Source: a virus. From it: a stretch of DNA of 52,724 nucleotides. Below the pieces are notes generated by a model that worked only from the letters and a program-made list of their open reading frames with translations, had not been told where the DNA came from and did no database searches. Shown piece by piece: positions 5,497-49,215 of the stretch (position 1 is the first letter of the stretch; every line of letters starts with the position of its first letter). Location of the stretch: the IMG/VR virus record IMGVR_UViG_3300022885_000020, positions 1 to 52,724 of that record. The stretch is one strand, 5' to 3'. Position numbers and translations under genes: made by a program.

Positions 5497-5880
5497 ATGA
5501 TTGGTATTTTCCTATTTTCTTGCCTTTTCGTTATTCTCTTGGTCTCCAAGTGGATTTTTGGGGATCAGGAGGTACAGCGACCAAGTAAAGACTACATGAT
5601 CGAGATTGCGACAATAAGTCCAACCCCTCGGCGTGTAGTCAGGCCAAAGGCTAATCCTCGATTAGCCCTACAAGTTAAGACAGAAAAGCCAAGGCCAAAA
5701 GTCAAAGCTAAGCCAGCACCTAGTGGCAAAGACCACCCTCTTTATGAGGACTGTGTCCAAGCCCTTGTTGCTCTTGGCGAGAAGTCAGCCTCTTCTAAAA
5801 AAACAGCCGCTTCAATCTTAGGATCTCAAAAGATAGACGGCGTTGAGCAGTTCATCACCGTGGTGTACTCAAAGAGCTAG
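5497..5880 (+). CDS. Membrane-anchored protein with RuvA-C-like tail
   Basis: A 127-residue protein: an N-terminal hydrophobic segment (residues 2-20, IGIFLFSCLFVILLVSKW), a long lysine/proline-rich linker (about 40-80), and a compact C-terminal helical unit, DCVQALVALGEKSASSKKTA. The last unit resembles the three-helix RuvA domain III pattern (xALxxLG), which in RuvA contacts RuvB, but the similarity is short. It would sit in the inner membrane with the tail in the cytoplasm or periplasm. It is driven by the consensus promoter upstream; no strong RBS is visible. Confidence 0.55.
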   Translation: MIGIFLFSCLFVILLVSKWIFGDQEVQRPSKDYMIEIATISPTPRRVVRPKANPRLALQVKTEKPRPKVKAKPAPSGKDHPLYEDCVQALVALGEKSASSKKTAASILGSQKIDGVEQFITVVYSKS

Positions 5881-5956
5881 ACTTAAAAAACAAACTAAAC
5901 GTCGATAGGTTATGGGTAACACCGTAGCCTTCTGTCGTTTGACGACTGGAGTGAGT

Positions 5957-10543: not shown

Positions 10544-12439
10544 ATGAGTAATCATTTTGAAAGTCCTCAGACTATTGAGAAAGCATACGAACAAGGTTTA
10601 GTCGGTTCGTATTGTGACAAGGAAGAATTGGACGCACTGTTGGGTGAACTAAAGCACCCATTATTCAGTGTTGCTGCTCATAACTTGTACGGGACTGGTG
10701 AAGGGAAGATTAGTCTTCCTTTCAAGTCCCTGTTGAAGTATGACCCAGGATTTGGGCCAGCAGAAGCACAAAAGACAGGTGACTGTTACGCAAAGGGCAC
10801 AATAGTTATTGGAGAAGAGACCAAGACTATAGAAAAGGTCAAGATAGGAGATATGATATTTGGTCCAGATGGCGATTTAACCAGGGTAATTAGCACAAAA
10901 AAGCAAATTTCCCAAAAAAGCCTTGTAAAAATAAAGACGAAGGGGTCTGTACCGCTAATTGTAACAGAAGACCATGAAGTTATGGTTTCAAGAGATGGAA
11001 ACAGATCCCTTATAGAGGCCAAACACATTGAAAAGGGAGACTATTTAGTTACCCCAGCTAGTTTGCTAGATGGTGAAAAGTTTAACCTCTCTCCCTTTTC
11101 AAGTCATAAAGATTTTGATTGGTTTTTGGGTTATTTTTTGGGTGACGGGTGGTGCGATACAAAACAAATAGAAATAACCTTCGCAGAGCACCAGGAAGAT
11201 TATTATAGAACCTGTAAAGATTTGCTAGAAGATTTTGGTTTTAGAGTCAGAAGGTGCAACTACAAAGGCAAAGACACCACAGCGTTTAGGTTTAGGTGTT
11301 GGTGCCCAGGTTTAGCTGAACCTCTTAGAGCGATTGCTTATAATCAAGATAAAGACAAGGTTTTTCCCCTTGGAGCAATTGGCAACACTGAGATTTTATG
11401 CGGATTGATAGACTCTGACGGTTTCAGAAAACCTGGAAAAGAAACGTTTGATTCTAAATCTGTATCTTTAGCTTATGGAGTTTATTATTCTTACCTAAAG
11501 CTTGGATATAGACCAACTATCAATATTTTTCATAGGTCTAAAAATGGGTCTTATGAAACTTCTAGTGTTAGTTATAGAGTTTCTTGTATTTTTGAGAAGA
11601 AGAAAAATTATTCTTATGTAGAAGATGGTTTACTGCATATTTTAGTTAGTTCTACAGAGCTTGAAGCAGGATCACACGAAGTTTATGATATAGGCGTTGA
11701 ACACGAAGACCATTGTTTTTTAGCTAATGGTGTTATTTCTCACAACTGCGTATCTCACGCTACAAGAAATGCTGTAGACATTAGTCGAGCAGTAGAGATT
11801 GATAACGGAGAAGCAGAAGACTTTGTGGGCCGAAGTGCCACAGAGGGTATTTATGGAGCTAGGGGCCACAGAGGACAAGGTATGTCCTGTAGTGCTGCTG
11901 CTAGATTTGTATCTACAAGCGGAGGCATTCTAGTAAGAAAGAAGTACAGCTTTGCTGACCTATCTAAGTACAACGTAAATGTTGGCATGGGATGGGGTGG
12001 TAGAGGCGTACCTAGAGATGTTCTTACTGAGGCTTCTAAGCATCAAGTTAAGACGGTCAGTATGGTTCACACCGTAGAGTCCGCTAGAGACGCACTAGCT
12101 AATGGCTATGCTATCTCAGTTTGTTCGAGTCAGGGTTTCGGTAGTAGCCGAGACAAGAGCGGCATCGCGAGCCCTAAGGGTTCGTGGGCACACGCTATGG
12201 CCTGGATTGGTTGTGACGACAGTAGAGAGATTTTTAACGAGACCCTCTTCTTGGTTCAAAACTCTTGGGGCATTTGGAATAGCGGTCCTTTGAGATTGGG
12301 GCAACCCGAAGGTAGTTTCTGGATTCGCGAAAGCGTTGCCAAGAGAATGCTTGGGGCAGATGGCTCGTTTGTATTCAGCAATATCGACGGATTTAAGCCT
12401 AGAAAGCTTGACTACTCGATTATCACAGAGGTACTATAA
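10544..12439 (+). CDS. Papain-like (C1) cysteine protease interrupted by an intein
   Basis: The 631-residue precursor contains a 321-residue intein (residues 81-401); the joined extein is 310 residues. The extein reads QKTGD joined to CVSHATRN, the papain-type nucleophile block, with the catalytic His in SWAHAMAWIGC and the Asn/Trp block QNSWGIWNSG. The nucleophile cysteine is the +1 residue of the intein, so the enzyme cannot be active until the intein is spliced out. Substrates are unknown; candidates are virion proteins or host wall peptides. It overlaps the next gene by one base (TAATG). Confidence 0.8.
   Translation: MSNHFESPQTIEKAYEQGLVGSYCDKEELDALLGELKHPLFSVAAHNLYGTGEGKISLPFKSLLKYDPGFGPAEAQKTGDCYAKGTIVIGEETKTIEKVKIGDMIFGPDGDLTRVISTKKQISQKSLVKIKTKGSVPLIVTEDHEVMVSRDGNRSLIEAKHIEKGDYLVTPASLLDGEKFNLSPFSSHKDFDWFLGYFLGDGWCDTKQIEITFAEHQEDYYRTCKDLLEDFGFRVRRCNYKGKDTTAFRFRCWCPGLAEPLRAIAYNQDKDKVFPLGAIGNTEILCGLIDSDGFRKPGKETFDSKSVSLAYGVYYSYLKLGYRPTINIFHRSKNGSYETSSVSYRVSCIFEKKKNYSYVEDGLLHILVSSTELEAGSHEVYDIGVEHEDHCFLANGVISHNCVSHATRNAVDISRAVEIDNGEAEDFVGRSATEGIYGARGHRGQGMSCSAAARFVSTSGGILVRKKYSFADLSKYNVNVGMGWGGRGVPRDVLTEASKHQVKTVSMVHTVESARDALANGYAISVCSSQGFGSSRDKSGIASPKGSWAHAMAWIGCDDSREIFNETLFLVQNSWGIWNSGPLRLGQPEGSFWIRESVAKRMLGADGSFVFSNIDGFKPRKLDYSIITEVL
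10784..11746 (+). mobile_element. Intein with LAGLIDADG endonuclease in the protease gene
   Basis: 321 residues. It starts at Cys (block A CYAKGTIVIG), has block B in VTEDHEVMV, two LAGLIDADG-type motifs (FLGYFLGDGW and LCGLIDSDGF), block F HEVYDIGVEHEDHCFLANG, and ends in the canonical ISHN before +1 Cys. All splicing residues and both LAGLIDADG acidic residues are present, so it looks active for splicing and homing. The DNA appears more A/T rich than the flanking protease sequence. Boundaries were set by the continuity of the protease sequence and the HN|C junction. Confidence 0.93.
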
Positions 12440-14606: not shown

Positions 14607-14641
14607 AAGGTGCCACCTTGAACGGGGCGGTACCTTATTTT
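14607..14641 (+). terminator. Terminator-like hairpin before nrdJ
   Basis: AAGGTGCCACC (14607-14617) can pair with GGCGGTACCTT (14626-14636) with one G-T wobble and one mismatch, around an eight-base loop, followed by ATTTTG. It closes the membrane-protein block and overlaps a possible TTG start at 14640, which is one reason to start nrdJ at 14682. The T tract is short, so it may be leaky. Confidence 0.5.
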
Positions 14642-14681
14642 GTCTACACACCGAAACAAAGTAAAATTCAATGAGGAAAAT

Positions 14682-17600
14682 ATGTCAATTAAGGCTCTAC
14701 AAGATTACACATTTACGTCCAAGTATGCTAACTACAGACCGGACCTAAAAAGAAGAGAGACCTGGGTAGAATCCCAAGATAGAGTGCTGGATATGCAGCT
14801 AAGAAAGTATCCAGAGATTTCAGAAGACTTGAAGTGGGCTTATGAGCAGTCCAAGAAAAAGATTGTATTAGGGTCGCAGCGTGCCCTACAGTTCGGTGGT
14901 ATCGACATCGAGAAGAATAGCGCTAAGATTTACAATTGTATTGCGTCGTTTTGTGATAGGCCACGGTTCTTTCAAGAGTGCCTATGGCTTCTTTTGTGTG
15001 GCTGTGGCACTGGGTTCTCAGTACAAGACCATCATATTGATAGACTACCTAGCTTCTCAAAGAAATGGAACGACAACGATGGTCGACACACCAAAGTCTT
15101 TACGGCAGAAGACTCCATAGAGGGCTGGGCAGATACACTAGGGGTTTTCATTAGTAGTGTCTATGGGGGAGGAGACTTCCCAGAGTATGAGGGATACAAT
15201 GTTGAATTTGATCTCTCAGAAATTAGACCAGAAGGTGCTAAGGTTGGTAGCGGCAGGGGGAAGGCTCCAGGCCCCGAACCTTTACAAAAAGCCCTCAATA
15301 AGATCAAACTAATTTTTGCCGACGCCCTTGCCGCAGGACAGACTCGATTTAAGTCAATCAACTGTTATGATATCATCATGCACGCTAGCGATGCTGTTAT
15401 CTCTGGTGGTATCAGACGTAGTGCTACTATTTGTTTATTCAGCCCAGATGACGAAGAAATGGCGAAAGCCAAGACTGGGAACTGGTTCATTGACAACCCA
15501 CAGCGTGGACGTTCAAACAATTCGGCTGTGCTAGTTAGAGGCGAAACGACATTTGAAGAATTCCAGACTCTAATGGGATTCGTTAAACAGTATGGAGAGC
15601 CTGGGTTTGTTTGGGTAGACCATAGAGACTTAATGGTAAATCCCTGTGTAGAGATTGGCTTCTACCCAGTATGCGTAGAGACCGGAGAAAGCGGATGGCA
15701 GGCTTGTGTTTCTGGAGATACAAAACTAATTACCAAGGACGGCATTGATAACATCAAAAATCTCGTAGGTAAAGATTGTAAAATTTGGAATGGTGACTCC
15801 TGGAAAACCGTAAACCCATTTGTGACAGGTGAAAATAGAGAACTATACAGAGTAGAACTTTCTGATGGGTCTTATCTAGACTGTACCGATAATCACGAAT
15901 GGCTAGTTAAAAACAGGTTTGAAGAAGAACATAGGGTTGTTAAGACTAAAGACCTGCTGACGGGTGAAAAGTATAAAATATCGACGCCCAGGGTTAATTG
16001 TGTAAACCCTGGAGGTGTGTGGGAAGAGTATGCCTATGAGTATGGTTTTGTCTTAGGAGATGGGACGGCTAGACCTAATCATTCTCCTTTTGCAACCCTA
16101 TCTGGAGACGACTTTAAGCTAAACCTACGAGGAAAACAGAGTGAAACTAAGCCCCCGAATGAAAAATACGCGTTAGAACACGCTCATATAACCTTTACAG
16201 ATCTAGATAACAAATTTAGTTGTGACCTCAAATACTCTCAAGGGCTACCTAGAGATGTATTTACCTGGGATAAACATTGCATATTGGAGTTTGTTAGTGG
16301 GTGGATTGACGCAGATGGATCAAAAGCCAATGATGGATGTAGACTATACGGCGAAGAGAGTAAAATTAGAGATTGTCAACTTCTTTTGACCAAGGTTGGG
16401 GTTAATTCTAGTGTAAACCTAATGTCCGAAGCTGGTTCAATTACAAATATTGGAGAAAGGAGACGTTCAGTTTGGTATCTTCAAATACGAAATGCAGTCA
16501 AACTTAGGCCGAAAAGTAAAGGTAGAAGGCAAATTATTCAATCTGTGACAAAGCTACAAGGCTTGCACACCACCTATTGCGTATACGAAGAAGAAAAGAA
16601 CCAATGCACATTCAACAACGTATTAACTAAGCAGTGTAACCTTTGTGAGATTAACGGCAAGCATTGCAACACCCCAGAAAGGTTCTATAGTGCTTGCAAA
16701 GCTGGGGCCATCATTGGGACTGCCCAGGCTGGCTATACTGACATGGGCTACCTTGGAGACGTTAGTAAGCGAATCCTAGAAAAAGAAGCCCTACTTGGTA
16801 TTTCTGTTACTGGCATGATGGATAATCCAGACGTATTGTTTGATCCAGAGGTACAAAAGGAAGGGGCAAGAGTAATCCTAGAAGAAAACAAGCGTATTGC
16901 CAAAGCTATTGGGATTAACCCAACCGCAAGGGCAACTTGCGTGAAGCCCGCAGGGACCACCAGTTGCGTCCTAGGGACTTCTAGCGGCATTCACCCCCAC
17001 CATGCCAAAAGATACATCCGACGCACTCAGAGCAACTACATGGAGGCTCCACTGGCCTTCTTTACCAAAACGAACCCCTTGGCCGTGGAAAAGTCCGTTT
17101 GGTCAGCCAACGGAACAGACAATGTGATCGCATTTTGCGTAGAAGTTCCTAAGGGAGCAAAGACAAAGAATGACATTGGTGCTATTCAGTTGCTAGATTA
17201 TGTCAAATCGACACAACAGCACTGGGTAGAGGCAGGTAAAGTAGAAGAAAGATGTACTAGGCCTTGGTTATCCCACAATGTTTCTAACACCATTACTGTT
17301 AAAGACGATGAGTGGGAAGACGTAACTGAGTATATTTACGCCAATAGAGAGTACTTTGCTGGTATCAGCCTGTTGTCCATTAGTGGCGACAAGGACTACC
17401 AACAGGCCCCCTTTACGGCGATCTATACCCCCAGAGAGCTAGTTACTATGTACGGAGATGCTTCTGTAATGGCTTCTGGTATGATTACCGATGGATTACA
17501 TGCCTTTGAGGGCAACCTTTGGAGTGCTTGTGAAGCGGCCCTTGGTGTTAGGAAGGTCGACTATGGTAAGTTAGAAGAGGCAGAAAAAGAGCTTCAAGAG

Positions 17601-17915
17601 CTAAGAAATGGCACCGAAGAAGGTGCAGATGTGCCCCCATTCATTGTTTTTGCAGCAGAAGAAGGCTATAAAAAGCTTTGGAGTCAACACGATTGGGTTA
17701 GAAGGTCTAAACAGTTTGCGGAAAGATACTTCGATGGTGATGTCAAAAAGATGACATACTGTCTAAAGGACGTAAATAATTGGAAATACTGGTGTGACCT
17801 TCAAAGAGAGTACAAGGACATCGATTATTCAGGAATGGTAGAAGAAGAGGATAATACCAAAATAGAGGAAACAACGGCATGTTCAGGGGGAGCTTGCCAA
17901 ACTCAGTACGCATAG
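14682..17915 (+). CDS. nrdJ: Class II (adenosylcobalamin) ribonucleotide reductase interrupted by an intein
   Basis: ATG 14682 has a GAGGAA site just upstream. The 1,077-residue precursor contains a 310-residue intein; the joined enzyme is about 767 residues, close to monomeric B12-dependent reductases such as that of Lactobacillus leichmannii (739 aa). Visible blocks: NPCVEI (thiyl-radical Cys region), CNLCEINGK after the intein (redox Cys), PAGTTSCVLGTSSGIHP, and a C-terminal Cys pair ACSGGAC (reducing shuttle). It would make deoxynucleotides without oxygen, using host B12 and a thioredoxin. Downstream is a new promoter. Confidence 0.85.
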   Translation: MSIKALQDYTFTSKYANYRPDLKRRETWVESQDRVLDMQLRKYPEISEDLKWAYEQSKKKIVLGSQRALQFGGIDIEKNSAKIYNCIASFCDRPRFFQECLWLLLCGCGTGFSVQDHHIDRLPSFSKKWNDNDGRHTKVFTAEDSIEGWADTLGVFISSVYGGGDFPEYEGYNVEFDLSEIRPEGAKVGSGRGKAPGPEPLQKALNKIKLIFADALAAGQTRFKSINCYDIIMHASDAVISGGIRRSATICLFSPDDEEMAKAKTGNWFIDNPQRGRSNNSAVLVRGETTFEEFQTLMGFVKQYGEPGFVWVDHRDLMVNPCVEIGFYPVCVETGESGWQACVSGDTKLITKDGIDNIKNLVGKDCKIWNGDSWKTVNPFVTGENRELYRVELSDGSYLDCTDNHEWLVKNRFEEEHRVVKTKDLLTGEKYKISTPRVNCVNPGGVWEEYAYEYGFVLGDGTARPNHSPFATLSGDDFKLNLRGKQSETKPPNEKYALEHAHITFTDLDNKFSCDLKYSQGLPRDVFTWDKHCILEFVSGWIDADGSKANDGCRLYGEESKIRDCQLLLTKVGVNSSVNLMSEAGSITNIGERRRSVWYLQIRNAVKLRPKSKGRRQIIQSVTKLQGLHTTYCVYEEEKNQCTFNNVLTKQCNLCEINGKHCNTPERFYSACKAGAIIGTAQAGYTDMGYLGDVSKRILEKEALLGISVTGMMDNPDVLFDPEVQKEGARVILEENKRIAKAIGINPTARATCVKPAGTTSCVLGTSSGIHPHHAKRYIRRTQSNYMEAPLAFFTKTNPLAVEKSVWSANGTDNVIAFCVEVPKGAKTKNDIGAIQLLDYVKSTQQHWVEAGKVEERCTRPWLSHNVSNTITVKDDEWEDVTEYIYANREYFAGISLLSISGDKDYQQAPFTAIYTPRELVTMYGDASVMASGMITDGLHAFEGNLWSACEAALGVRKVDYGKLEEAEKELQELRNGTEEGADVPPFIVFAAEEGYKKLWSQHDWVRRSKQFAERYFDGDVKKMTYCLKDVNNWKYWCDLQREYKDIDYSGMVEEEDNTKIEETTACSGGACQTQYA
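15705..16634 (+). mobile_element. Intein with LAGLIDADG endonuclease in nrdJ, C-terminal Gln
   Basis: 310 residues, starting at Cys in CVSGDTKLITKDG (block A), with block B CTDNHEWLV and LAGLIDADG motifs YGFVLGDG and VSGWIDADG. Removing it restores GWQA-CNLCEING. The C-terminus is unusual: it ends NNVLTKQ before +1 Cys, so the penultimate residue is Lys, not His, and the last is Gln, not Asn. A few inteins with terminal Gln are known to splice; activity here needs a test. Boundaries rest on extein continuity. Confidence 0.9.
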
Positions 17916-31732: not shown

Positions 31733-32917
31733 TTGAAAAAAGAATTCGCACCACTGTGTAACTACACGCACTACAGCTTACAACTAGGATTCTCAAAACC
31801 CAAGGCCTTAGTTAAGAAATGCAAAGACAATGGATATACCGCATGTGGTATTTCTGATTACAAGAGTATCTCGGGCACTGTCCGATTCTTTCAAGAGTGT
31901 AAGAAAGCTGGTATAAAGCCAATCATTGGGTGTTCTTTTGATGGGTTTAGTCTGTTTTCTAAAAACAAAGATGGCTGGTTTGACCTTATCGCAATTGTGT
32001 CAGCTATTCAGCACCAAGATGAAATGACTGTCATCAAAGAGTACTGCAAACGTGGTAACTTGATCTATGTTGGACGTAAGCAACAGACGCCACTGTGCCC
32101 AGGTGGCGATAATTACTTGAAGGGCGGGAAGATTAAGAATTACTTCTACACGGACAAGTCAGAGGTAGATATTCATAGAATTTCTTTATGCTCTGGGTTG
32201 AAGGTGCCCCTTCCCGACATGATGAAGTATATTGGTAAGGGTAAAGTTCAAGACGAACTAAAACCCTATATCAAGTTCTTCACAGAAGATAGCTTTGGCG
32301 TACCTAATAAGGATCACGCAGTTGTTTGTGAGGATATTTGCAGTATTGTAGACTCTTGTACAGAGTATGATATTCTTGAGAAGCCAATGTTGCCAACCTT
32401 CCCCACTCCAAATGGAGAGTCCGAGGAAGAGTATCTAAAGCAGCTATGCCGACAAGGCTGGAATGAATTACTTGGGAAGACGGGCAAAGTAGAAAAAGAA
32501 GAAGCCAAGCAAAGATACCTAGACCAATTCAACGAAGAGTTTGGAGTTATTAAGGGGGCGAAGCTGTTTGGTTATTTCTTGATTGTATGGGACATCATTA
32601 ACTTCATCAAAAGCAAGGGCTGGATCAGCGGACCAGGAAGAGGGTGCTTTTTGCCAGACACGAGGGTGAGAATGTCTAACGGCTTATTGAAACCAATCTC
32701 TATAATAAAGAAAGGAGAAAGCGTTGTAGACGCTTTTGGTGGTTCGCAAATTGTTGCAGATACACTTTCTTATCTAGTGGATGAAGAAATAATTGAAATG
32801 ACCATGGAAAACGGCAAAATTATTCGGTGTACAGAAGATCACAAGTTCTTAACGAGCAATAGAGGCTGGGTTACAGCAAAAGACTTGACAGAATTTGACG
32901 AAATCACAGAAATATAG
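31733..32917 (+). CDS. dnaE: DNA polymerase III alpha, piece 1 (PHP to GPGRG) fused to an N-intein
   Basis: A TTG start at 31733 follows GGAG. The 394 residues are 304 of N-extein and 90 of N-intein. The extein begins with a PHP domain, but its first metal motif is degenerate (CNYTHYS where HxH-type pairs are usual), and ends at KSKGWISGPGRG, a known polymerase motif. The sequence then runs into CFLPDTRV, and the frame stops at a TAG. Without the missing half this is not a polymerase; it should be ligated by trans-splicing to the piece at 33159. Confidence 0.85.
   Translation: MKKEFAPLCNYTHYSLQLGFSKPKALVKKCKDNGYTACGISDYKSISGTVRFFQECKKAGIKPIIGCSFDGFSLFSKNKDGWFDLIAIVSAIQHQDEMTVIKEYCKRGNLIYVGRKQQTPLCPGGDNYLKGGKIKNYFYTDKSEVDIHRISLCSGLKVPLPDMMKYIGKGKVQDELKPYIKFFTEDSFGVPNKDHAVVCEDICSIVDSCTEYDILEKPMLPTFPTPNGESEEEYLKQLCRQGWNELLGKTGKVEKEEAKQRYLDQFNEEFGVIKGAKLFGYFLIVWDIINFIKSKGWISGPGRGCFLPDTRVRMSNGLLKPISIIKKGESVVDAFGGSQIVADTLSYLVDEEIIEMTMENGKIIRCTEDHKFLTSNRGWVTAKDLTEFDEITEI
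32645..32914 (+). mobile_element. N-terminal half of a split DnaE intein
   Basis: 90 residues, starting with Cys in CFLPDTRVRMSNGLLKPIS (block A) and containing block B in RCTEDHKFLTSN, followed by GWVTAKDLTEFDEI. A TAG stop ends the frame. Insertion lies between GPGRG and SAAG of the polymerase. Size and motif order match N-halves of DnaE-type split inteins. Confidence 0.88.
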
Positions 32918-32980
32918 TCTAGGTCGGGGTTCTATTATAACAATCCAATTGAATATGAAGACGAAAATGGTGTCTTTAGG

Positions 32981-33187
32981 ATGTATTTTCCAGACTTTAT
33001 TATAAATGAGAAAACAATCGTAGAAGTTAAAGGGCTAGGGCTTTACTACAAAAAAAAACTACGATCATCACTTTTCTCTTCTGGAGAAGATTATTTAGTA
33101 TTATTTAGTGATGATGAGATATTAAAGACAAATTACCTCAAAGCTAGAAAGTGGCACCATGCAAATAAAAAAGAAAAGAAAAATTAA
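32981..33187 (+). CDS. PD-(D/E)XK nuclease frame between the two intein halves
   Basis: Counting from the first Met at 32981, this is a 68-residue frame, but the same frame is open right after the TAG at 32915-32917 and the extra upstream residues (FYYNNPIEYEDENG) look like part of the domain. The core is YFPDFIINEKTIVEVKGLGL, a PD-(x)n-ExK nuclease motif, followed by DYLVLFSDDEIL. It therefore looks like an intein endonuclease domain cut off from the N-intein by a stop codon and from the C-intein by a frameshift. Whether it starts at 32981, is made by amber readthrough, or is dead cannot be told. Confidence 0.5.
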   Translation: MYFPDFIINEKTIVEVKGLGLYYKKKLRSSLFSSGEDYLVLFSDDEILKTNYLKARKWHHANKKEKKN

Positions 33188-33263
33188 ATACTCTGGACTT
33201 GTTAACGATCTAACCGTCGAGAACTCCCACACTTACAACGTAGAAGGGTTAGCTGTGCATAAC
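33159..33263 (+). mobile_element. C-terminal half of a split DnaE intein
   Basis: 35 residues, with block F LVNDLTVENSHTYNVEGLAV and the canonical ending HN before +1 Ser (SAAG). The length and start Met are as expected for a free C-intein of the DnaE class. Together with the N-half at 32645 all known splicing residues (Cys1, TxxH, HN, Ser+1) are present. Confidence 0.88.
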
Positions 33264-34004
33264 TCTGCTGCTGGTTGTTTGATCTCCTATCTTATTAGAA
33301 TTACAAAGATCGACCCTATTGAGTTTAACTTATTATTCTCTAGGTTCTACAATGCTGGTCGTAATACAGAAGACCACGTCTCGTTGCCAGATATCGATAT
33401 TGATGTTCCAGGAGATAAGCGTGATGAAGTGATTGCCTATCTCAAATACAGATATGGTCCAGAAAACGTTAGCCAGATGATTACCTATGGGCGACTTCAA
33501 GGTAAAAGCTCCCTAAAAGAAGTTCTACGTATGAACAAAGCTTGTGGTTTCAATGAAATGAACGCCATGACTAAGCCAATCCCTGACGAGGCTGCTATTT
33601 CTGACCAACTTGAATTGATGGATGAAGAAGATCGTTCTATCATCAGGTGGACCCTAATCAATGACCCAGAAAGCTTGCGTCAGTGGTGCCACTTGGATGA
33701 ACAGGGAAACCTAAGGGGCGACTACGCTCCATACTTCGATCAGGCTATTAGACTTGAGGGCACATTCAAGAGTCAAGGTAAACACGCCGCTGGTGTGGTT
33801 ATCTCTAGGGAGCCTCTTCACAAGGTTTGCCCCATGTTGCCAGAAAAGAATGGCGAAATGATTGCAGGACTAGAAATGAACGACCTAGAAGCACTGGGTC
33901 ACGTTAAATTTGATATCTTGGGTCTCATGTTGCTTGATAAGCTTATGGAAATCCAAGAACTAATTGGAGAAAAAAAAGATGAATGCAAAGAAACAGGCCC
34001 TTGA
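33159..34004 (+). CDS. dnaE: DNA polymerase III alpha, piece 2 (C-intein plus palm)
   Basis: ATG 33159 opens 281 residues: 35 of C-intein and 246 of C-extein. The extein begins SAAGCLISYLIRITKIDP, matching the GRG|SAAG polymerase motif, and carries LPDIDIDVPGDKRDEVI (two catalytic aspartates, E. coli D401/D403 equivalents) and KFDILGL (third, D555 equivalent). So the whole palm active site is in this middle piece. It ends at LIGEKKDECKETGP, in the region between palm and fingers, with no intein. It overlaps the nuclease frame by 29 bases in another frame. Confidence 0.85.
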   Translation: MQIKKKRKIKYSGLVNDLTVENSHTYNVEGLAVHNSAAGCLISYLIRITKIDPIEFNLLFSRFYNAGRNTEDHVSLPDIDIDVPGDKRDEVIAYLKYRYGPENVSQMITYGRLQGKSSLKEVLRMNKACGFNEMNAMTKPIPDEAAISDQLELMDEEDRSIIRWTLINDPESLRQWCHLDEQGNLRGDYAPYFDQAIRLEGTFKSQGKHAAGVVISREPLHKVCPMLPEKNGEMIAGLEMNDLEALGHVKFDILGLMLLDKLMEIQELIGEKKDECKETGP

Positions 34005-34218
34005 GCTAATAAGAAAAAAAGACGAAGAGTTTGGGGAGGGGTGGTCAAACGACACAGAAGAGATCGCCAGACTTATGGTCGAGTTCCAAAACTCTACCTT
34101 GAAAGATATCAAACAAATCATGGAGAATGGCACACCCAACCGTAGATACTATAATGGCTGGGAAGAACGTGTTCTTGATCTGTGTAAAGAGACCGACCCA
34201 TATTTACAAACGAGGTAG
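33979..34218 (+). CDS. Hypothetical protein, 79 aa
   Basis: ATG 33979 lies inside the 3' end of polymerase piece 2 in another frame, after an eight-A run, with GGAG at 33966-33969. The product is charged and helical (MNAKKQALELIRKKDEEFGE, then a mixed core with VEFQNSTLKDIKQIMENG and RRYYNGWEERVLDL). I see no family. It is the first of several small genes between polymerase pieces 2 and 3. Confidence 0.5.
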   Translation: MNAKKQALELIRKKDEEFGEGWSNDTEEIARLMVEFQNSTLKDIKQIMENGTPNRRYYNGWEERVLDLCKETDPYLQTR

Positions 34219-34418: not shown

Positions 34419-35114
34419 ATGGCAGATAGAGACTTCATCGTATTTGACTTTGAAACCGGTGGCAGAGATCCACATACGTGTCAACCAACGCAGCTTGCTG
34501 CAATCGCCCTACATGGACGAACTCTTGAAATGAAGAAAGTGGGGGGCGAGTTTAACAGTGAAATCTGGGCAGAAACAGATGACGACAAGGCTATTGCGGC
34601 GGGGCTGGCACCTCTTGAGGAAGAGGCTTTGAAGGTCACGGGAAAGACTAGAGAACAGATCGCCAAGGCACCTAAGCCAAAGGCTGTGTGGACTAAGTTC
34701 TTAGCCTTTGTGAATAAGCACAACTGGAAGGGTACAACCTGGTTCGCCCCTATTCCTGCTGGCTACAACATCATCAACTACGACATGCCAATCATTAACA
34801 GGATGGCAAAGTTGTATGGAGGCTGGGATGACAAAAAGGGCCAGAACAAGTTCTTTAATCCTATCAAGAAATACGACATGATGGACGACATGTTCTTATG
34901 GACAGAGAGCGACCCTACTATTAAGTCTATCAGCATGGACAACGTCAGAAAGCGAATGGGTATGGAAAGCGAGAACGCCCACGATGCTCTTCAAGACGTA
35001 AAAGATACGGCAAACATCATTATTAAATTCCTTAAAACTAGAAGGGCAATGTATAAAACACTCAGCCCTAAGATTGACAAGGCGTTTGCTAATGGTGGAC
35101 TATACATAGAATAG
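34419..35114 (+). CDS. DEDD 3'-5' exonuclease, DnaQ-like
   Basis: A 231-residue exonuclease with the DEDDh layout: FIVFDFETGG (Exo I, DxE), PAGYNIINYDMPIINRM (Exo II, Asp), and ENAHDALQDVKDT (Exo III, His and Asp). These match the epsilon/RNase T-type proofreading enzymes. It lies between pieces 2 and 3 of the polymerase whose own PHP motif is degenerate, so it is a good candidate for the proofreading activity. No clamp-binding motif was identified. Confidence 0.85.
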   Translation: MADRDFIVFDFETGGRDPHTCQPTQLAAIALHGRTLEMKKVGGEFNSEIWAETDDDKAIAAGLAPLEEEALKVTGKTREQIAKAPKPKAVWTKFLAFVNKHNWKGTTWFAPIPAGYNIINYDMPIINRMAKLYGGWDDKKGQNKFFNPIKKYDMMDDMFLWTESDPTIKSISMDNVRKRMGMESENAHDALQDVKDTANIIIKFLKTRRAMYKTLSPKIDKAFANGGLYIE

Positions 35115-35123
35115 GAGATTGGA

Positions 35124-35285
35124 ATGGACATAACTTGCCCAAGATGTGAATGTGAATTTGAGGACAAAACATGGAATGGTGGCCAGTGCCCAGATTGTAA
35201 CTTAGACTACTGGTGGGATGACGGCTATGTCCCAAATACGGACATTGATTACTACTTGATTGTGTGGGAAAAATATGACAGTTGA
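35124..35285 (+). CDS. Small zinc-ribbon protein, 53 aa
   Basis: ATG 35124 with AGGAG upstream. Two CPxC knuckles, CPRC (residues 5-8) and CPDC (22-25), form a zinc ribbon, followed by an aromatic/acidic tail (NLDYWWDDGY). It overlaps polymerase piece 3 by 11 bases in another frame. It might bind the polymerase or DNA; no family is recognised. Confidence 0.55.
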   Translation: MDITCPRCECEFEDKTWNGGQCPDCNLDYWWDDGYVPNTDIDYYLIVWEKYDS

Positions 35286-37257
35286 CATTGATAATATTCC
35301 GATGAATGATCCAGAAGTCTGGAAGCTTTTCGCGGAAGGTAGAACCAAGGGTATTTTTCAACTTGAAAGCAATCTTGGAAGATCGTGGTCCAAGAAAGTC
35401 AAGCCCGAAAATATGGAAGAGCTTGCGGCTCTGATCTCTATTCTTCGTCCTGGCTCTTTGAAAGCTATGTATCAGGGCAAGTCTATGTCCCAGCACTATG
35501 TAGACAGAAAGCACGGACTAGAACCCGTTGAGTATCTACATCCTTCTCTTGAGCCATTCTTAGCTCCAACCTACGGGGTTTTGATCTATCAAGAACAAGC
35601 TATGATTATAGCCAAAGAGCTTGCGGGTTTCTCTGAGTCAGAGGCCGATGTTCTTAGAAAGGCCATTGGTAAAAAGAAAGCAGACGTGATGGCAAAGGTC
35701 AAGGAAGACTTTATCATTGGTTGCGAGAAAGTCGGGACGGTTGAAGCCAAAGACGCAGAAGAAATCTTCGGGTGGATTGAGAAGTCTGCCCGATACAGTT
35801 TTAACAAGTCTATTACGAAGGATTCAGTAGTACAAACACCAGACGGTGAAAAGCAGCTATCAGAAATTAAAGCTGGAGATTTTGTACTATCTCCCTGTTT
35901 ATTGTCTGACCAATACGTAAAAGTCTTAGAGACTTATGACCACGGGTCACTAGAGGTCTATGAGTTAGAGCTAGAGTGTGGTAAAACTATAAAATGCACA
36001 ATGGAGCATAAATTCTTGTGCAAAGATGGTGTTATTAGACCTCTTTCTGATATTCTGTTATATTTTCACGAGATAGTTGTTCAAGATTGTGTAGACATGA
36101 AATCTAGTAAAATAGTTAGAATAAAAAGCTTGGGCACAATGCCCACTATGGACATTGAGGTTGATAGTGATAGCCATCTTTTTTATGCTAATAAAATAGC
36201 CACCAGTAATTCTCACGCAGTGGCTTATGGGCTAGATTCGTATTGGAGTGCTTATTTCAAGGCACACTATATCAAACAGTTCTTTGTAGCCTATTTTCGT
36301 TACGCAAAAGACAAACAGGACGCTCACCAAGAGGTTTATGAACTAGCGTCAGAAGCTAAGCTTTTTGATCTTCAATTGAAAACTCCTAGTATTGCTAATT
36401 TTAAGCGTCAATTCAATTGCGTTGGAGACATCATCTACTTTGGCATCAAGGACATTAAGTCTTTGACTGGCAAGAATGGAGACAAGGCTTTTATTGCTGT
36501 TGAAGATATGCTTGTGCATCTAAATAAAAAGATTGAGAACACCTCGTGGATGGAAATCTTGTTGTTCTTCTCTCCTAAGGTAAACTCTACAGTGTTCAAA
36601 ACTTTGGGGTCTATTGGGTTCTTCCTTGGAATCAAAGACAAAGTCACGAGAAACAAAGTTTTATATGACTATCAGATCTTTCGCATCTTGACTAAGGCCG
36701 AAACCGACTGGGTAATAGAAAACTACCCTAAGAGAAGATGGAAGGATTTGCAGTCTTGCTTTAGAGATCTAGCACCTACAAAAAAAGAGGGCGGCGGGAC
36801 CAGTAAAGAGTCCAGAAAGCAGATTATCTTGAACGAGATTAAGATGCTACAGAACCCACCCTACGACCTAGAAGACGATCCAGAGTGGATCATTGACCAG
36901 GAAGTGAAGTTCTTAGGTTGCCCTGTCTCTATGTCTAAGATTGAAACCACAGACATGTGCGGCAATACAACCTGTAAGGAACTAGCAGACGGGAAAAAGG
37001 GCAAGAAGCTAACAATCGCCGCAAACATTACCCGAGTGTTTAACACGAAGGTTAAGAAAGAAGGGGCAAGTAAGGGAAAAGAGATGTCCTTCCTGACCAT
37101 TGAGGACGAAACCTGCTCAATTGACAGCGTTGTGGTCTTTCCAGAGGCGAGAGAAGACAATAAGTACAGCTTATTTGAAGGAAACAACGTGATGATCTAC
37201 GGAAGTTCAGAGAAGGGCGACGGAAGTCTGATCGTTGAAAAAATTTCAGATATTTAG
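35275..37257 (+). CDS. dnaE: DNA polymerase III alpha, piece 3 (fingers to OB) with an internal intein
   Basis: ATG 35275 is used; GTG 35260 is an alternative. The 660-residue frame contains a 134-residue mini-intein, giving 526 residues of polymerase: fingers (KGIFQLESNLGRSW, ALISILRPGSL, APTYGVLIYQEQAM), the SFNK/SHAVAY motif split by the intein, a helix-hairpin-helix-type middle and a C-terminal OB-like fold (KLTIAANITRVFNTK, MSFLTIEDETCSIDSVVVF). It follows directly the natural break after piece 2, so the polymerase is separated at the palm-fingers boundary without an intein at that point. Confidence 0.85.
   Translation: MTVDIDNIPMNDPEVWKLFAEGRTKGIFQLESNLGRSWSKKVKPENMEELAALISILRPGSLKAMYQGKSMSQHYVDRKHGLEPVEYLHPSLEPFLAPTYGVLIYQEQAMIIAKELAGFSESEADVLRKAIGKKKADVMAKVKEDFIIGCEKVGTVEAKDAEEIFGWIEKSARYSFNKSITKDSVVQTPDGEKQLSEIKAGDFVLSPCLLSDQYVKVLETYDHGSLEVYELELECGKTIKCTMEHKFLCKDGVIRPLSDILLYFHEIVVQDCVDMKSSKIVRIKSLGTMPTMDIEVDSDSHLFYANKIATSNSHAVAYGLDSYWSAYFKAHYIKQFFVAYFRYAKDKQDAHQEVYELASEAKLFDLQLKTPSIANFKRQFNCVGDIIYFGIKDIKSLTGKNGDKAFIAVEDMLVHLNKKIENTSWMEILLFFSPKVNSTVFKTLGSIGFFLGIKDKVTRNKVLYDYQIFRILTKAETDWVIENYPKRRWKDLQSCFRDLAPTKKEGGGTSKESRKQIILNEIKMLQNPPYDLEDDPEWIIDQEVKFLGCPVSMSKIETTDMCGNTTCKELADGKKGKKLTIAANITRVFNTKVKKEGASKGKEMSFLTIEDETCSIDSVVVFPEAREDNKYSLFEGNNVMIYGSSEKGDGSLIVEKISDI
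35809..36210 (+). mobile_element. Mini-intein without endonuclease, Ser-initiated, in dnaE piece 3
   Basis: 134 residues: it begins with Ser in SITKDSVVQTPDGEKQLSEI (block A), has block B CTMEHKFLCK, and ends MDIEVDSDSHLFYANKIATS-N before +1 Ser (SHAVAY). Ser1 instead of Cys and Ser before the terminal Asn are acceptable variants. It lies three residues after the canonical cyanobacterial DnaE split-intein site (Y|CFNKSH). No endonuclease motif is present, so it is not self-mobile. Confidence 0.85.
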
Positions 37258-37258
37258 G

Positions 37259-37287
37259 TTGTCTTTTCCAAACCTTCTGACTATAAT
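37259..37287 (+). promoter_or_regulatory. Sigma70-like promoter for the HNH endonuclease
   Basis: TTGTCT (37259-37264), 17-base spacer, TATAAT (37282-37287), starting right after the stop of polymerase piece 3. RBS AGGGAG precedes ATG 37304. It is the second homing-type nuclease with a private promoter. Confidence 0.6.
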
Positions 37288-37303
37288 AGATAAGGGAGCA
37301 AAA

Positions 37304-38047
37304 ATGAAAACCTGTAGAAGATGCAAAGAATATCTTGATGAAAGTCGTTTTGGAAATAGCAAACGTCACAAAAGCGGCAAAAATAATACATGTAAAAGGT
37401 GCCTTAGGGATTTGTACTATACTCCAAGACCTAGAAAACCTGTGAGTACTTTGTGTGCTAAGTGCAAGACAAATAAAAAAGATCCTCAAGGTAATAGAAA
37501 ACGTCAACCTAGCTATTGTAAAGAGTGTAATAAAGCAATGGTGAAAGAAAGTTATCCTAAGTATGAAGAAAGGCGAAAAAGGAGTGCAAGAGAATACTAC
37601 CTCAAAAATCAAGAAAAGATACAAGAGTATTGTAGAAACAACACAGAAGCAAGGAGGGAGCGAAATAGAACCTGGAGAAAGAACAATCCAGAAAAATGCT
37701 TAGCACAGAGTAGGAAAAGCAATGCCGACCCAATACAAAGAATGAACAGGAATATGAGGAATAGTATAACAAGAGGACTAAGGGGCCAAAAGAAGAAGTT
37801 AAAAACGTTTGACTACATAGGGCTTAAAACGGAAGAGTTTTGGGACTATTTAGAATCTAAATTCCAAGATGGTATGACTAGGGAAAATTATGGAGAATGG
37901 CATGTAGATCATATAAGGCCATTAAGCAGCTTTGATTTTGCTTCTAATGGCATGGAAGATCAACTAAAAATAGCATGGCATTACACAAACCTACAACCCC
38001 TATGGGCTATTGATAACTTCAAAAAAGGAAATAAAATAGAACAATGA
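37304..38047 (+). CDS. HNH homing endonuclease with zinc fingers
   Basis: ATG 37304 is used (247 aa); a longer frame from 37235 overlaps the promoter. The N-terminus has several Cys pairs (CRRCKEYLDE, CKRC, CAKC, CKEC) that form zinc fingers, a basic helical linker, and a C-terminal HNH core: EWHVDHIRPLSSFDF (the HNH His/Asp) then NLQPLWAIDNFKKGNK (Asn and His-like region). This is a classic free-standing phage homing endonuclease. It lies next to the split dnaE gene and an intein-bearing glycosyltransferase. Confidence 0.8.
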   Translation: MKTCRRCKEYLDESRFGNSKRHKSGKNNTCKRCLRDLYYTPRPRKPVSTLCAKCKTNKKDPQGNRKRQPSYCKECNKAMVKESYPKYEERRKRSAREYYLKNQEKIQEYCRNNTEARRERNRTWRKNNPEKCLAQSRKSNADPIQRMNRNMRNSITRGLRGQKKKLKTFDYIGLKTEEFWDYLESKFQDGMTRENYGEWHVDHIRPLSSFDFASNGMEDQLKIAWHYTNLQPLWAIDNFKKGNKIEQ

Positions 38048-40749
38048 GAAAAAAAAGAATCCTCTTCTGTAGTGAGGCGACCTTTCTAAACACTGGTTAT
38101 GCTACCTACACTAGAGAAATCATGGAGTATCTAAACTCCACAGGAAAATACGAACTAGCCGAATTAGCCGCCTATGGTCAAAGAAACGATCCTAGGGGGC
38201 TATCTTTGCCTTGGAGGTACTATGGAGTACAACCAAACAAGGAGTTTCAACCTAGAGCTAGTAGAGAAGAGATGCAGTCATACGACTCAAGTCCCTTCAA
38301 TCAATTTGGCGAGTTCATCTTTGAAGAAGTTTGCCTAGACTTTAAGCCAGACATTGTCTTTGATATCAGAGACTTCTGGATGTGCTTAACTCCTAATACT
38401 AATATCGTATGTAAAAACTCCATCAAGAAGATCAAAGACATAAAAGTCGATGACTTGGTCTTAACACACGAAGGAAGATATAGAAGAGTAATAAACACAT
38501 TTAAAAAGAGTTATTTCGGAGATCTCCACACTATTAATGTGCAAAATTGCCCATTTAATGTAGAACTAACAGACGATCATCCGGTCTATTGCTTAAAAAG
38601 AAATGGAGAGAAAAGCCTACCAGTGCATAAGTTTTCACCTAAAAATTTAGAATGGGTAGACTCCCAAGGCATTGAGAAAAACGACATATTGGTTTACCCA
38701 ATTGACAAAGAGGGAGATAAAAATCACAAGAATGACTTTTGTAGATTCTTAGGCTACTATATGGCCGAAGGCTGCATAATGTACGAGGGCTTAAAAGAGG
38801 ACAACAAATACAAAGGTATTCAGTTAACCTTTAATGCTAATGAGTCTAGTCATATTGATGACTTTATCTCTCTTGTTAAGGTTTTTTATGATAAAGAAGC
38901 TAAAATAAAGATACTTGGGAATACGGCAATAGTAAGGTGTTACGGCAAAAGAATATCACAAGATTGTCTAAAGTTTTGCGGTTCTTTGGCTGGAGACAAG
39001 AAGCTTTCTGATGAGGTGTTTTTCTCAAATAACGAGTGTATAAGGTCGTTTTTGTGTGGCTTATTTAGGGGTGACGGAGGTTATTACAAGGAAAGAGCTT
39101 CTTACTGCACAAAGAGTGAGCAATTAGCACACCAAGTATTTAGGATGTGCCTAAGGATTGGAATATTGCCATCCTTCAATCTAAATAAAAATAATATCAA
39201 AGGAATCGACAAAGATTATTTTAGATACATATTCTCTTTTAGGTCTAATAGCTTAGAGGGATTTAAGACTATTTATGACAACCTCCTCAATAAAGAAATA
39301 GCTAAAGCGACAAGAATTAAAAATGGCTACGCTTGGTTAACTGTTAAAGAGGTTATTAAACAATCCTATGGAGAACAAGTTCATAACTTTGAAGTAGAAG
39401 AAGACAATACCTATGTATCTTCTTTTTGTATTCATAATTGCGAGTTTGTAGAGCGATCTCCCTTTAGGAAGATGTTCAAGTGGGTAATTATCCCCACAGT
39501 AGACGCGGCACCACAAGCTAGGCAGTGGATTAGTACTTACGCAAGTGCTGACGCAGTCCTGTCTTACTCTGAGTGGTCTGGCGACGTTATGAAAGAACAG
39601 TCTGGAGGGAAGATCAACTATGTTGGGACAGCCCCTCCATCTGCTAATCCTGCGTATAAGCCAATGGACCAAGCTGTTTGTAGAGAAAACCTGGGGCTAG
39701 ATAAGGATATAAAGATTGTGGGCACGGTTATGCGTAATCAAAGACGCAAGCTTTACCCAGATCTCTTTGAGGCGTGGGCTCTGTTCTTAGGGCAACAAGA
39801 GAACCCTAATGAGTACAAGCTGTACTGTCACACAAGTTATCCAGACCTAGGTTGGGATATCCCAGAGTTACTACAGCAGAACTGTGTCTCTTCAAGTGTT
39901 TATTTTACTTACATTTGCCCAGAGACCAACAAGACATTTGCTTCATTGTTTGCGGGGGGTATCTGTGAATCGCCTTTCACTGGTAAATACAACGCCACCA
40001 TGTGCAATGTTAAGCAGGGTGCTAGCTATGAACAGTTGTCAGAAGTGATGAATTGCTTTGACTTATATGTTCAATATGCTAACAGCGAGGGATTTGGCCT
40101 TCCACAAGTAGAGGCGGCTGCTTGTGGTATCCCCGTTGTTTCTGTTGACTACAGTGCTATGAGCAGTGTTGTTAGCAATCTAGCCGGAGTGCCCTTGAAG
40201 CCCAAAGCTCTATACAAAGAACTAGAGACAGGATGCTATAGGGCCGTTCCAGATAACGAAGACACCGCGATGGTTTTCGGTAGGTTCTTCGATATCGACA
40301 AAGAAGACAGGATCGCTTTGGGGCACAGGACTTTAGACAGATTTAAGAAGCATTATCAGTGGGATCAGACTGGAGACATACTTGCAAAGGTATTCGATTC
40401 ATTCGAGATTGAACCAGTAGAGAAAACTTGGGAGTCTGCACCAAGAATTCACCAACCAAAACCAAAACCAGAGATTCCTCCGCAGACTACGCACAAGCAA
40501 TTGGCTCAGTGGTTGATTGTAAATGCACTAGGAGAGCCTGACAGACTTAACACTCAGTTTGAGTCTCGTCTTACTAGAGACCTTATGTATGAGAGTAGGA
40601 CTTCTTCTACCTCTAAGGTTTATGAGAATGAGAGTTCGGCAGGTTTTGATGGTAAGGTGGTAAGAATACCCTTTAACTTTGATCTAGCTTACCGGGAAAT
40701 GCTCAAGATAGCAGAGAAGAGGAACTATTGGGAACAAAAGAGAATCTAA
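38044..40749 (+). CDS. GT4-like glycosyltransferase interrupted by an intein
   Basis: A 901-residue precursor holding a 352-residue intein (residues 114-465), so the enzyme is 549 residues. Exteins show an N-terminal GT-B half (RILFCSEATFLNTGYATYTR) and the C-terminal GT4 signature ANSEGFGLPQVEAAACGIPV (E-x7-E). The intein sits in FDIRDFWM|CEFVERSPFR of the N-terminal half. Inteins in glycosyltransferases are rare; most known inteins sit in DNA-metabolism enzymes. It starts on the stop of the HNH nuclease (ATGA). Confidence 0.85.
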   Translation: MRKKRILFCSEATFLNTGYATYTREIMEYLNSTGKYELAELAAYGQRNDPRGLSLPWRYYGVQPNKEFQPRASREEMQSYDSSPFNQFGEFIFEEVCLDFKPDIVFDIRDFWMCLTPNTNIVCKNSIKKIKDIKVDDLVLTHEGRYRRVINTFKKSYFGDLHTINVQNCPFNVELTDDHPVYCLKRNGEKSLPVHKFSPKNLEWVDSQGIEKNDILVYPIDKEGDKNHKNDFCRFLGYYMAEGCIMYEGLKEDNKYKGIQLTFNANESSHIDDFISLVKVFYDKEAKIKILGNTAIVRCYGKRISQDCLKFCGSLAGDKKLSDEVFFSNNECIRSFLCGLFRGDGGYYKERASYCTKSEQLAHQVFRMCLRIGILPSFNLNKNNIKGIDKDYFRYIFSFRSNSLEGFKTIYDNLLNKEIAKATRIKNGYAWLTVKEVIKQSYGEQVHNFEVEEDNTYVSSFCIHNCEFVERSPFRKMFKWVIIPTVDAAPQARQWISTYASADAVLSYSEWSGDVMKEQSGGKINYVGTAPPSANPAYKPMDQAVCRENLGLDKDIKIVGTVMRNQRRKLYPDLFEAWALFLGQQENPNEYKLYCHTSYPDLGWDIPELLQQNCVSSSVYFTYICPETNKTFASLFAGGICESPFTGKYNATMCNVKQGASYEQLSEVMNCFDLYVQYANSEGFGLPQVEAAACGIPVVSVDYSAMSSVVSNLAGVPLKPKALYKELETGCYRAVPDNEDTAMVFGRFFDIDKEDRIALGHRTLDRFKKHYQWDQTGDILAKVFDSFEIEPVEKTWESAPRIHQPKPKPEIPPQTTHKQLAQWLIVNALGEPDRLNTQFESRLTRDLMYESRTSSTSKVYENESSAGFDGKVVRIPFNFDLAYREMLKIAEKRNYWEQKRI
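38383..39438 (+). mobile_element. Intein with LAGLIDADG-type motifs in a glycosyltransferase
   Basis: 352 residues starting at Cys (CLTPNTNIVCKNSIKKIKDI, block A), block B LTDDHPVYCL, LAGLIDADG-like FLGYYMAEGC and LCGLFRGDGG, block F HNFEVEEDNTYVSSFC and the canonical end IHN before +1 Cys. Splicing residues are all present. The first LAGLIDADG motif has Glu and the second Asp as acidic positions. A/T-rich relative to the exteins. Confidence 0.92.
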
Positions 40750-47445: not shown

Positions 47446-49215
47446 ATGAAACAATACATTGATATAGTAAGTAGGGTTTTGGAAGACGGCAAGTGGAAGT
47501 CTCCAGTCAGAAAAGTCGGTAACACATGGGAGCCAGTAGATGGGGGTATTAGGACTAAAGCTGTACCTAACGTTTTCTTTTCTCACGAAATGCGGGATGG
47601 GTTTCCTTTACTTACGACGAAAAAGATGGCTTGGAAAGCAATCAGAGTCGAACTTGAAGGATTTATCAAAGGGATCACAGACAAGCAGTGGTTTCAAGAC
47701 CGAAACTGTAAGATTTGGTCAGAATGGTGTAACCCAGAGGCGGTAGAGGGGCACCAGTATATGCAGGAATACTCTCACGACGAAACAATGAGTCATGAAG
47801 AATCTAATGCAGAATACAACTCTCGAAAGAAAGCCGCCCAAAAAGAACTTAATTGCCTTGGTCCCATATATGGTGCGAATTGGATTAATTTTGATGGAGA
47901 CTATGCTCCAGTTCCACAAATAACAACGGGACTAAATAAGACAATTAAGGTCTCACTGAGTGAAAATTGTCCATTCGATCTAGTTGGCAAAGAATTCAAT
48001 GGGACAAATGGGATATACACAGTAGTATCATACGACGGCAAAGACAGGCATTGTAATTGTAGGTTCTCAGTAAAGTTTCATACTAGTGGATTTGTAAAAG
48101 ATAATTTGTGTAAATCACAAGTACAAGAAGGGAAAATCTACGATCCATATTATCCATCGGTATGCGGTGTCGCTTGCATGGGAGAGTATAAAGATGTTGA
48201 GATTCCAGAGCTTCACTATGAAGAAGATAAGGAATCCACGGTAGAGGCGATAAAAAACCAATGGAGACAAATGATCCAAAGATGCTATAATAAAAGCAAC
48301 AAAGCTTATAAAAATTATGGTGCTTGCGGAATCTATGTTCACAATAACTGGCTAATATTCGAGAACTTTTTAAGAGACATTCAAAGAGTAAACGGATGGA
48401 AGTTTAAATTAGATAATTGGTCTGGATACCACTTAGACAAAGACATTAATGGACTAGGCTTTTATGGACTTAGGGGGTGTCAATGGACCACTAGAGAAGA
48501 CAACGCTAATCATACTAGCCAACAATACTATTTTGACGCTGTAGACCCAAACAACAATACGTTCTTTAACGAGTATGGCTTAGCTAGATTCTGTAGAAAA
48601 TACAACCTAAATGTCAAAACAGTAGAAGCTTCTATAAAGAGCAAAACAAAGACCCATGGTGGATGGTGTTTCCATAGAAAAGAAAACTTAGATACTAGGC
48701 CAAAGATTAAGACTGGCACTAATCAACTAGCCAATATCGTTGAGACTCTTCGCACCAACCCTATGGACAGACGAATGGTCTGTTCCGCATGGAACCCCAA
48801 TCAGATCCACATGATGGCCCTACCACCCTGTCACTATGCTTGGAATGTCACAGTCATCGATAACAAAGTCAATCTCTTCTGGGCTCAGCGTAGTGCAGAT
48901 CTGATGTTAGGCGTGCCCTTCAACATCGCTTCTTATGGCTTACTTTTAAGCCTATTGGCCGCAGATGCCGGGTTGGAAGTGGGCAATCTATCAGGCGTAT
49001 TTGTTGACTGTCATATCTATGAAAATCAACTAGATGGTGCTATTGAGCAAGTCCAAAGAGAGCCGCAACCCTTGCCCTCTATTGAATTGGACCCTAATGT
49101 TCAAAACTTAATGGCCCCTAATGAGTTTGATATCTTCAACTGGACCCACGACAAGGTGGGACTCGTAGGATACAACCCCCTTGACAAGATTGACTTTGGT
49201 GAGGTAGCAGTATGA
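47446..49215 (+). CDS. thyA: Thymidylate synthase with an in-frame endonuclease-like insertion
   Basis: 589 residues in one open frame. The N-terminal part (SHEMRDGFPLLTTKKMAWKA, ELNCLGPIYGANW) and the C-terminal part (NPMDRRMVCSAWNPNQIHMM, LPPCHYAWNV with the catalytic Cys, FNIASYGLLLSLLA) are a normal ThyA of about 331 residues. About 258 residues in between (after residue 164) belong to an HNH/NUMOD-type protein. The insertion is in the small-domain loop that is naturally variable between ThyA species (Lactobacillus casei has about 50 extra residues). No intein splice residues are present, so the fused protein may have to tolerate it. Confidence 0.85.
   Translation: MKQYIDIVSRVLEDGKWKSPVRKVGNTWEPVDGGIRTKAVPNVFFSHEMRDGFPLLTTKKMAWKAIRVELEGFIKGITDKQWFQDRNCKIWSEWCNPEAVEGHQYMQEYSHDETMSHEESNAEYNSRKKAAQKELNCLGPIYGANWINFDGDYAPVPQITTGLNKTIKVSLSENCPFDLVGKEFNGTNGIYTVVSYDGKDRHCNCRFSVKFHTSGFVKDNLCKSQVQEGKIYDPYYPSVCGVACMGEYKDVEIPELHYEEDKESTVEAIKNQWRQMIQRCYNKSNKAYKNYGACGIYVHNNWLIFENFLRDIQRVNGWKFKLDNWSGYHLDKDINGLGFYGLRGCQWTTREDNANHTSQQYYFDAVDPNNNTFFNEYGLARFCRKYNLNVKTVEASIKSKTKTHGGWCFHRKENLDTRPKIKTGTNQLANIVETLRTNPMDRRMVCSAWNPNQIHMMALPPCHYAWNVTVIDNKVNLFWAQRSADLMLGVPFNIASYGLLLSLLAADAGLEVGNLSGVFVDCHIYENQLDGAIEQVQREPQPLPSIELDPNVQNLMAPNEFDIFNWTHDKVGLVGYNPLDKIDFGEVAV
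47938..48711 (+). mobile_element. In-frame homing-endonuclease-like domain inside thyA
   Basis: About 258 residues. The first part (FDLVGKEFNGTNGIYTVV, PSVCGVACMGEYKD), a middle with WRQMIQRCYNK and YHLDKDINGLGFYG then CQWTTREDNANH, and a C-terminal NUMOD-type DNA-reading unit ending KTHGGWCFHR, are typical of phage HNH/AP2-like homing endonucleases. No Cys/Ser/Asn splice junctions exist and the frame never closes, so it is neither an intein nor an intron with room for a ribozyme core. A short imperfect repeat (near 47926-47935 and 48712-48722) flanks it. Confidence 0.65.

Follow-up and report, generated by a model that had tools for sequence, protein, structure and literature searches.

A polymerase gene in pieces

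We analyzed a stretch of viral DNA of 52,724 bases (hereafter, the window), the IMG/VR virus record IMGVR_UViG_3300022885_000020, in which a DnaE-type DNA polymerase is encoded in three pieces, together with relative loci and contigs that were fetched for comparison (L-numbers, such as L003 or L139). All features of the polymerase locus described below are on the + strand. The first piece, extein 1 of the N-terminal subunit DnaE-N (31733..32644), consists of the PHP domain (PF02811, E=1.4e-14) and the start of the palm (PF07733), matches TIGR00594, and ends C-terminally in GPGRG. The middle open reading frame (ORF; 33159-34004) begins with 35 intein residues and, from position 33264, continues as DnaE-N extein 2 (33264..34004), which comprises the remaining, larger part of the palm along with the thumb and is recognized by the PF07733 profile (DNA_pol3_alpha, E=4.8e-46). 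The third piece, DnaE-C, is divided by an intein into extein 1 (35275..35808), which contains the fingers up to FNK and aligns from E. coli residue 584, and extein 2 (36211..37257), which starts from SHAVAYG and contains the remaining fingers and the OB domain. The fingers match PF17657 (E=5.6e-50); the OB domain is weak when taken alone (20.8 bits versus the Pfam cut-off of 27), and the model of the orthologous DnaE-C has an OB-like end.

An original prediction for this stretch had placed all catalytic aspartates in the middle piece, and this is what the HMMER alignments with solved DnaE chains show: LPDIDID aligns with D401/D403 of E. coli DnaE (codons 33390-33392 and 33396-33398), and KFDILG with D555 (codon 33912-33914). 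The three aspartates are invariant among 100 distinct orthologues. The accompanying assignment of PHP to the first piece and of the fingers and OB to the third was borne out by the profile matches. The three pieces tile the NCBIfam model TIGR00594 with no loss (up to 362, 359-576, and 579 onward), and the domains follow the order of DnaE-type family C enzymes, namely, PHP, palm with three aspartates, fingers, and OB. By its domains, the protein is a family C DNA polymerase of the DnaE type, presumably endowed with polymerase activity.

A split intein inside the palm

The junction between the first two pieces (break 1) lies at GPGRG^SAAG, which corresponds to G363/S364 of E. coli. Lamers et al. 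2006 are said to have delimited the E. coli DnaE palm as residues 271-432 and 511-560, so that break 1 falls within these limits and, therefore, does not coincide with a domain boundary. Positions 1-65 of PF07733, GPGRG included, are in piece 1, which means that the break runs through the palm. The notion that the gene is cut at domain boundaries is thus supported for the break between the palm and the fingers (break 2) but not for break 1.

The sequence directly past GPGRG, CFLPDTRV..., is the beginning of a split intein N-half (32645..32917; 90 amino acids) that starts with Cys1, includes CTEDHKF, and terminates at a TAG codon (32915-32917). It matches the intein_Nterm model TIGR01445 with 29.1 bits (cut-off 24.5), the match starting right after GPGRG, and its nearest solved chain is the NrdJ-1 intein (E=1.6e-6). 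The C-half (33159..33263; 35 amino acids), located in a separate ORF, ends in VHN immediately before the extein Ser of SAAG; it scores only 13.3 bits with the Intein_splicing model and is 69-77% identical to the same-site C-halves of L101, L124, and L139. Thus, the locus has the hallmarks of a split intein: a nucleophile with blocks A and B after the N-extein, followed by a stop, and His-Asn of the C-half before Ser. The halves are identical in nucleotide sequence between the window and L003, and in L005-L009 (64-65% palm identity), which are intein-free, exteins 1 and 2 form one ORF (533 amino acids in L005). Break 1 is, by these sequence features, a split intein, and pieces 1 and 2 would most likely be covalently joined by protein trans-splicing.

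Under an alternative, three domain-sized pieces would fold singly and assemble without any ligation. The palm/fingers break is indeed near a domain boundary, both natural halves are predicted to fold, and the intein halves could be inactive; however, break 1 separates GPGRG from SAAG, two halves of a single motif, it is flanked by intein halves in which Cys1, His-Asn, and Ser+1 are all present, and orthologues lacking the intein have a single chain here. We consider such ligation-free assembly improbable. The earlier suggestion that each piece may fold alone fails for pieces 1 and 2, for which covalent joining is expected and which make up one gene in intein-free orthologues.

Between the intein halves, a PD-(D/E)xK homing endonuclease gene survives as a remnant (32918..33187; 89 codons, motif FPDF...EVKG), with weak Pfam matches to PDDEXK and DUF7487. 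The remnant matches the C-terminal part of full-length endonuclease ORFs, with 53% identity in L139 and 39% in L124; in L139 and L124/L127, such an ORF of roughly 270 amino acids is found between the halves. The free-standing endonuclease ORF is intact in L139, L124, and L183, and is variously reduced elsewhere: only the last 89 codons persist in the window, L003 has a 95-bp further deletion, and L101 retains little beyond the tail. The intein halves remain open in all three of these reduced loci. The final endonuclease codons coincide, in another frame, with the beginning of the C-half ORF; they are kept in the window, L003, L101, L124, and L139, and the C-half, we infer, takes its translation start from them. 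In the distant phage L183 (2259-6968), GPGRG^S is likewise the site of a split intein, and the endonuclease there is homologous, with 30% identity across 172 columns. This series, from full endonuclease to remnant to almost none, with the halves still open, suggests that a split intein has become trapped in an essential gene after the loss of its homing endonuclease. It also enlarges the set of split inteins with new ones located at a conserved catalytic motif.

The palm of L003 contains, in addition, an insertion of ~515 bp (5521-6036), three codons before LPDIDID and flanked by GTATCT/GTATCC. The insertion adjoins a strongly diverged 39-codon tract, with a synonymous divergence (dS) of about 3 compared with 0.01 in extein 1, and the tract resembles the outcome of homing co-conversion; searches of the insertion for intein motifs, intron or other RNA families, protein families, and homologues in other contigs found none.

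The palm/fingers break and the exonuclease gene

Break 2 is located near the palm/fingers boundary and harbors the gene of a 3'-5' exonuclease of the proofreading type (RNase_T/DnaQ-like; 34419..35114; PF00929, E=1.1e-11), which also matches PHROG 192, 'DNA polymerase exonuclease subunit' (E=4.1e-27). The position of the exonuclease gene between those for the polymerase subunits is conserved in about 100 distinct IMG/VR viruses. The 249 fetched loci, among which some contigs occur more than once and which represent 100 distinct DnaE-N proteins, were classified as split with the exonuclease between (157), single-chain (79), split without the exonuclease (4), and incomplete (9); two of the four, L191 and L193, were rejected as true splits, having a fingers intein only. 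In a 37-row tree, the split-with-exonuclease group forms one clade with 100/100 support and a single gain, and L183 represents a second, separate gain of a break at the same spot, which is occupied there by two small ORFs and no exonuclease.

No intein or intron was seen at break 2, and because the genes for DnaE-N and the exonuclease (49 of 76 loci) and those for the exonuclease and DnaE-C (41 of 76) often overlap, there is no room for either element in the relatives with such overlaps. The window carries extra small ORFs inserted around the exonuclease gene. One of these (33979..34218), which overlaps the end of DnaE-N, was inserted between DnaE-N and the exonuclease in the window lineage; the other, a small Cys-rich ORF (MDITCPRCECEF...; 35124..35285) located between the exonuclease and DnaE-C and overlapping the start of the latter, is also present in L003. 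Cellular genomes searched for an exonuclease of the window type yielded no match, and the scanned neighbors of a related exonuclease in Bacteroides and Chryseobacterium phages included no DnaE piece.

Break 2 is, then, old and conserved: a two-subunit DnaE with the exonuclease gene in between is the shared state of the clade, and some members later acquired inteins in DnaE-N and DnaE-C. The original prediction had held that the layout makes assembly in trans more credible; this is supported for the palm/fingers break, which is shared by about 100 relatives and arose independently in L183, but not for break 1, where ligation by the intein is expected.

The same data bear on the possibility that the breaks are removed at the level of RNA or decoding, by self-splicing introns, stop recoding, or frameshifting, to yield one chain. 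The insertions do reside in highly conserved motifs, as introns do, and, one TAG aside, piece 1 and the endonuclease remnant share a reading frame. Against such repair, no Rfam intron was detected at either break, even in a permissive search, and the gene overlaps at break 2 in relatives exclude an intron; TAG is an ordinary stop that ends 9 of 45 selected window genes, and the stop of the N-half is likewise TAG in L139 but TAA in L124 and L101. Frameshifting out of the endonuclease ORF to reach the C-half (offset +1) was also considered and dropped, given that relatives have separate starts. Altogether, we find repair at this level very hard to credit. Misassembly of metagenomic reads, to which one might turn given that the window is a metagenomic contig and that the divergence flanking the extra insertion of L003 is mosaic, appears even more far-fetched: three more contigs (L002, L003, and L004) have the same structure, and the gene order at break 2 recurs in about 100 distinct relatives.

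Selection, other polymerases, and predicted folds

Among close relatives, the ratio of nonsynonymous to synonymous substitution rates (dN/dS) is 0.01-0.14 in DnaE-N, the exonuclease, and DnaE-C, and mostly near 0.05. Searches for other polymerase families, in which the controls behaved as expected, found no match to PolA or PolB in 15 contigs of 102-176 kb, each of which encodes exactly one set of palm and fingers genes; these being linear records, the absence is not proof. The several breaks, the endonuclease remnant, and the further palm insertion in L003 might evoke a decaying polymerase, that is, a pseudogene with stops and insertions replaced by another enzyme. Such decay is, however, difficult to reconcile with the low dN/dS, the invariance of the catalytic aspartates in 100 orthologues, the same gene order across the clade, and the lack of detectable PolA and PolB in the large contigs, and we regard it as highly implausible. 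The earlier contention that the arrangement does not reflect random decay is upheld by this strong purifying selection, the invariant aspartates, the conserved order, and the failure to find another replicative polymerase family.

Folding was predicted with AlphaFold for the two natural halves of the intein-free orthologue L093, modeled singly with alignments of 100 (DnaE-N) and 81 (DnaE-C) relatives. DnaE-N alone gave a predicted local distance difference test score (pLDDT) of 88.9 and a predicted template modeling score (pTM) of 0.86, and DnaE-C alone gave 87.7 and 0.74, respectively; the best structure matches of both predicted halves are solved DnaE. By these predictions, both natural halves would fold well on their own. 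Immediately beyond the palm, the final helix of DnaE-N contains the invariant L532, K534, and M536, as would be expected if an interface is retained there.

The fingers intein and other interrupted genes

At FNK^S, DnaE-C is interrupted by a contiguous Ser1 mini-intein (35809..36210; 134 amino acids) that lacks an endonuclease and has the gp41-1 intein as its nearest solved chain (E=1.5e-12). Most relatives are intein-free at this site; in L034 and L139, it is occupied by a split Cys1 intein whose halves are separated by an endonuclease ORF, which in L034 is Vsr-like and matches phage homing endonucleases. Right after DnaE-C, the window contains a Cys-rich ORF (37235-38047) that reads like an HNH endonuclease, with no Pfam match.

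Several other genes in the window are interrupted as well: a papain-like protease, identified by eye, with a LAGLIDADG intein directly before CVSHATRN (10544-12439); a ribonucleotide reductase ORF with an apparent intein after GWQA (14640-17915); a glycosyltransferase with a LAGLIDADG intein (38044-40749); and a thymidylate synthase into which some 265 amino acids of an HNH endonuclease are inserted in frame, with no obvious intein motifs (47446-49215).

A proposed two-chain polymerase

The explanation that we favor, and consider quite likely to be correct, is a conserved two-chain replicative DnaE of an uncultured phage clade, with DnaE-N secondarily fractured by a split intein in the phage of the window; it combines the observed anatomy, conservation, selection, and phylogeny with the predicted foldability of each half, and it would entail splicing, docking, and catalysis. 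In this scheme, DnaE-N would provide PHP, the palm with all catalytic aspartates, and the thumb, and DnaE-C the fingers and OB, with the genes for DnaE-N, the proofreading exonuclease, and DnaE-C forming a single operon. A split intein, the homing endonuclease gene of which is now a remnant, has additionally broken DnaE-N at GPGRG^S; the intein halves would come together, splice themselves out, and join extein 1 to extein 2, and the contiguous mini-intein would excise itself from the fingers at FNK^S. The mature DnaE-N and DnaE-C would then assemble non-covalently across the natural palm/fingers interface. Two considerations weigh against this explanation, namely, that the records are linear metagenomic contigs of uncertain completeness, in which the absence of PolA and PolB is not proof, and that the phage could be served by the polymerase of its host.

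A more elaborate arrangement, in which the catalytic core is an obligate palm/exonuclease/fingers heterotrimer, with the exonuclease bridging or gating the palm-fingers joint, is conceivable although we think it unlikely; if true, it would mean that no polymerase forms without its proofreader. The two-chain organization itself has a more general implication, in that the palm/fingers cut, maintained across a large phage clade, makes it directly testable whether a family C polymerase works from separate chains.

Comparison with known systems

The closest cultured phages show ~36% identity in the palm and ~30% in DnaE-C and the exonuclease. The combination of features in the window was not located in the accessible literature, with subscription papers mostly outside coverage, so that its novelty is provisional.

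Cyanobacteria have a split DnaE that is rejoined by a split intein (the Ssp/Npu DnaE intein) at the site Y^CFNKSH. The window resembles this system in that a split intein would rejoin DnaE; however, the cyanobacterial break is in the fingers, whereas the split intein of the window is in the palm, at GPGRG^S, and the FNK^S intein, three residues from the cyanobacterial split site, is contiguous. Another precedent is the 'fractured genes' that Dassa et al. 2009 reportedly described, in which split inteins (gp41-1, NrdJ-1, IMPDH-1) have a free-standing homing endonuclease between the halves. The window and its relatives share with these the break inside an intein, the endonuclease ORF that separates the halves and is intact in L139, L124, and L183, and the location in a phage replication-type gene, and among solved chains, NrdJ-1 is nearest to the N-half and gp41-1 to the fingers intein. 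They differ in the host gene and site (dnaE at GPGRG^S), in the reduction of the endonuclease to a remnant in the window, and in the extra, old break that is intein-free.

Pseudomonas phage MIJ3 has a DNA polymerase B gene that is interrupted at a putative split intein, with a homing endonuclease ORF separating the two parts (PMC6892783); this fracture of a phage polymerase gene is similar to that in the window. There, however, the polymerase belongs to family B and the endonuclease is of the HNH type, and the available part of that report describes no conserved intein-free break. Group 2.2 jumbo phages encode a split 'minimal' Pol III alpha, without the other Pol III domains, in which two proteins, divided between the NTP-binding and Mg/DNA-binding subdomains, are predicted to reconstitute one enzyme, and the genes of which are distantly located and accompany PolB (PMC7824862). 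By contrast, PolB was found in 0 of 15 large contigs, and the polymerase of the window includes PHP and OB, keeps GPGRG and all the aspartates in one subunit, and is encoded by neighboring genes.
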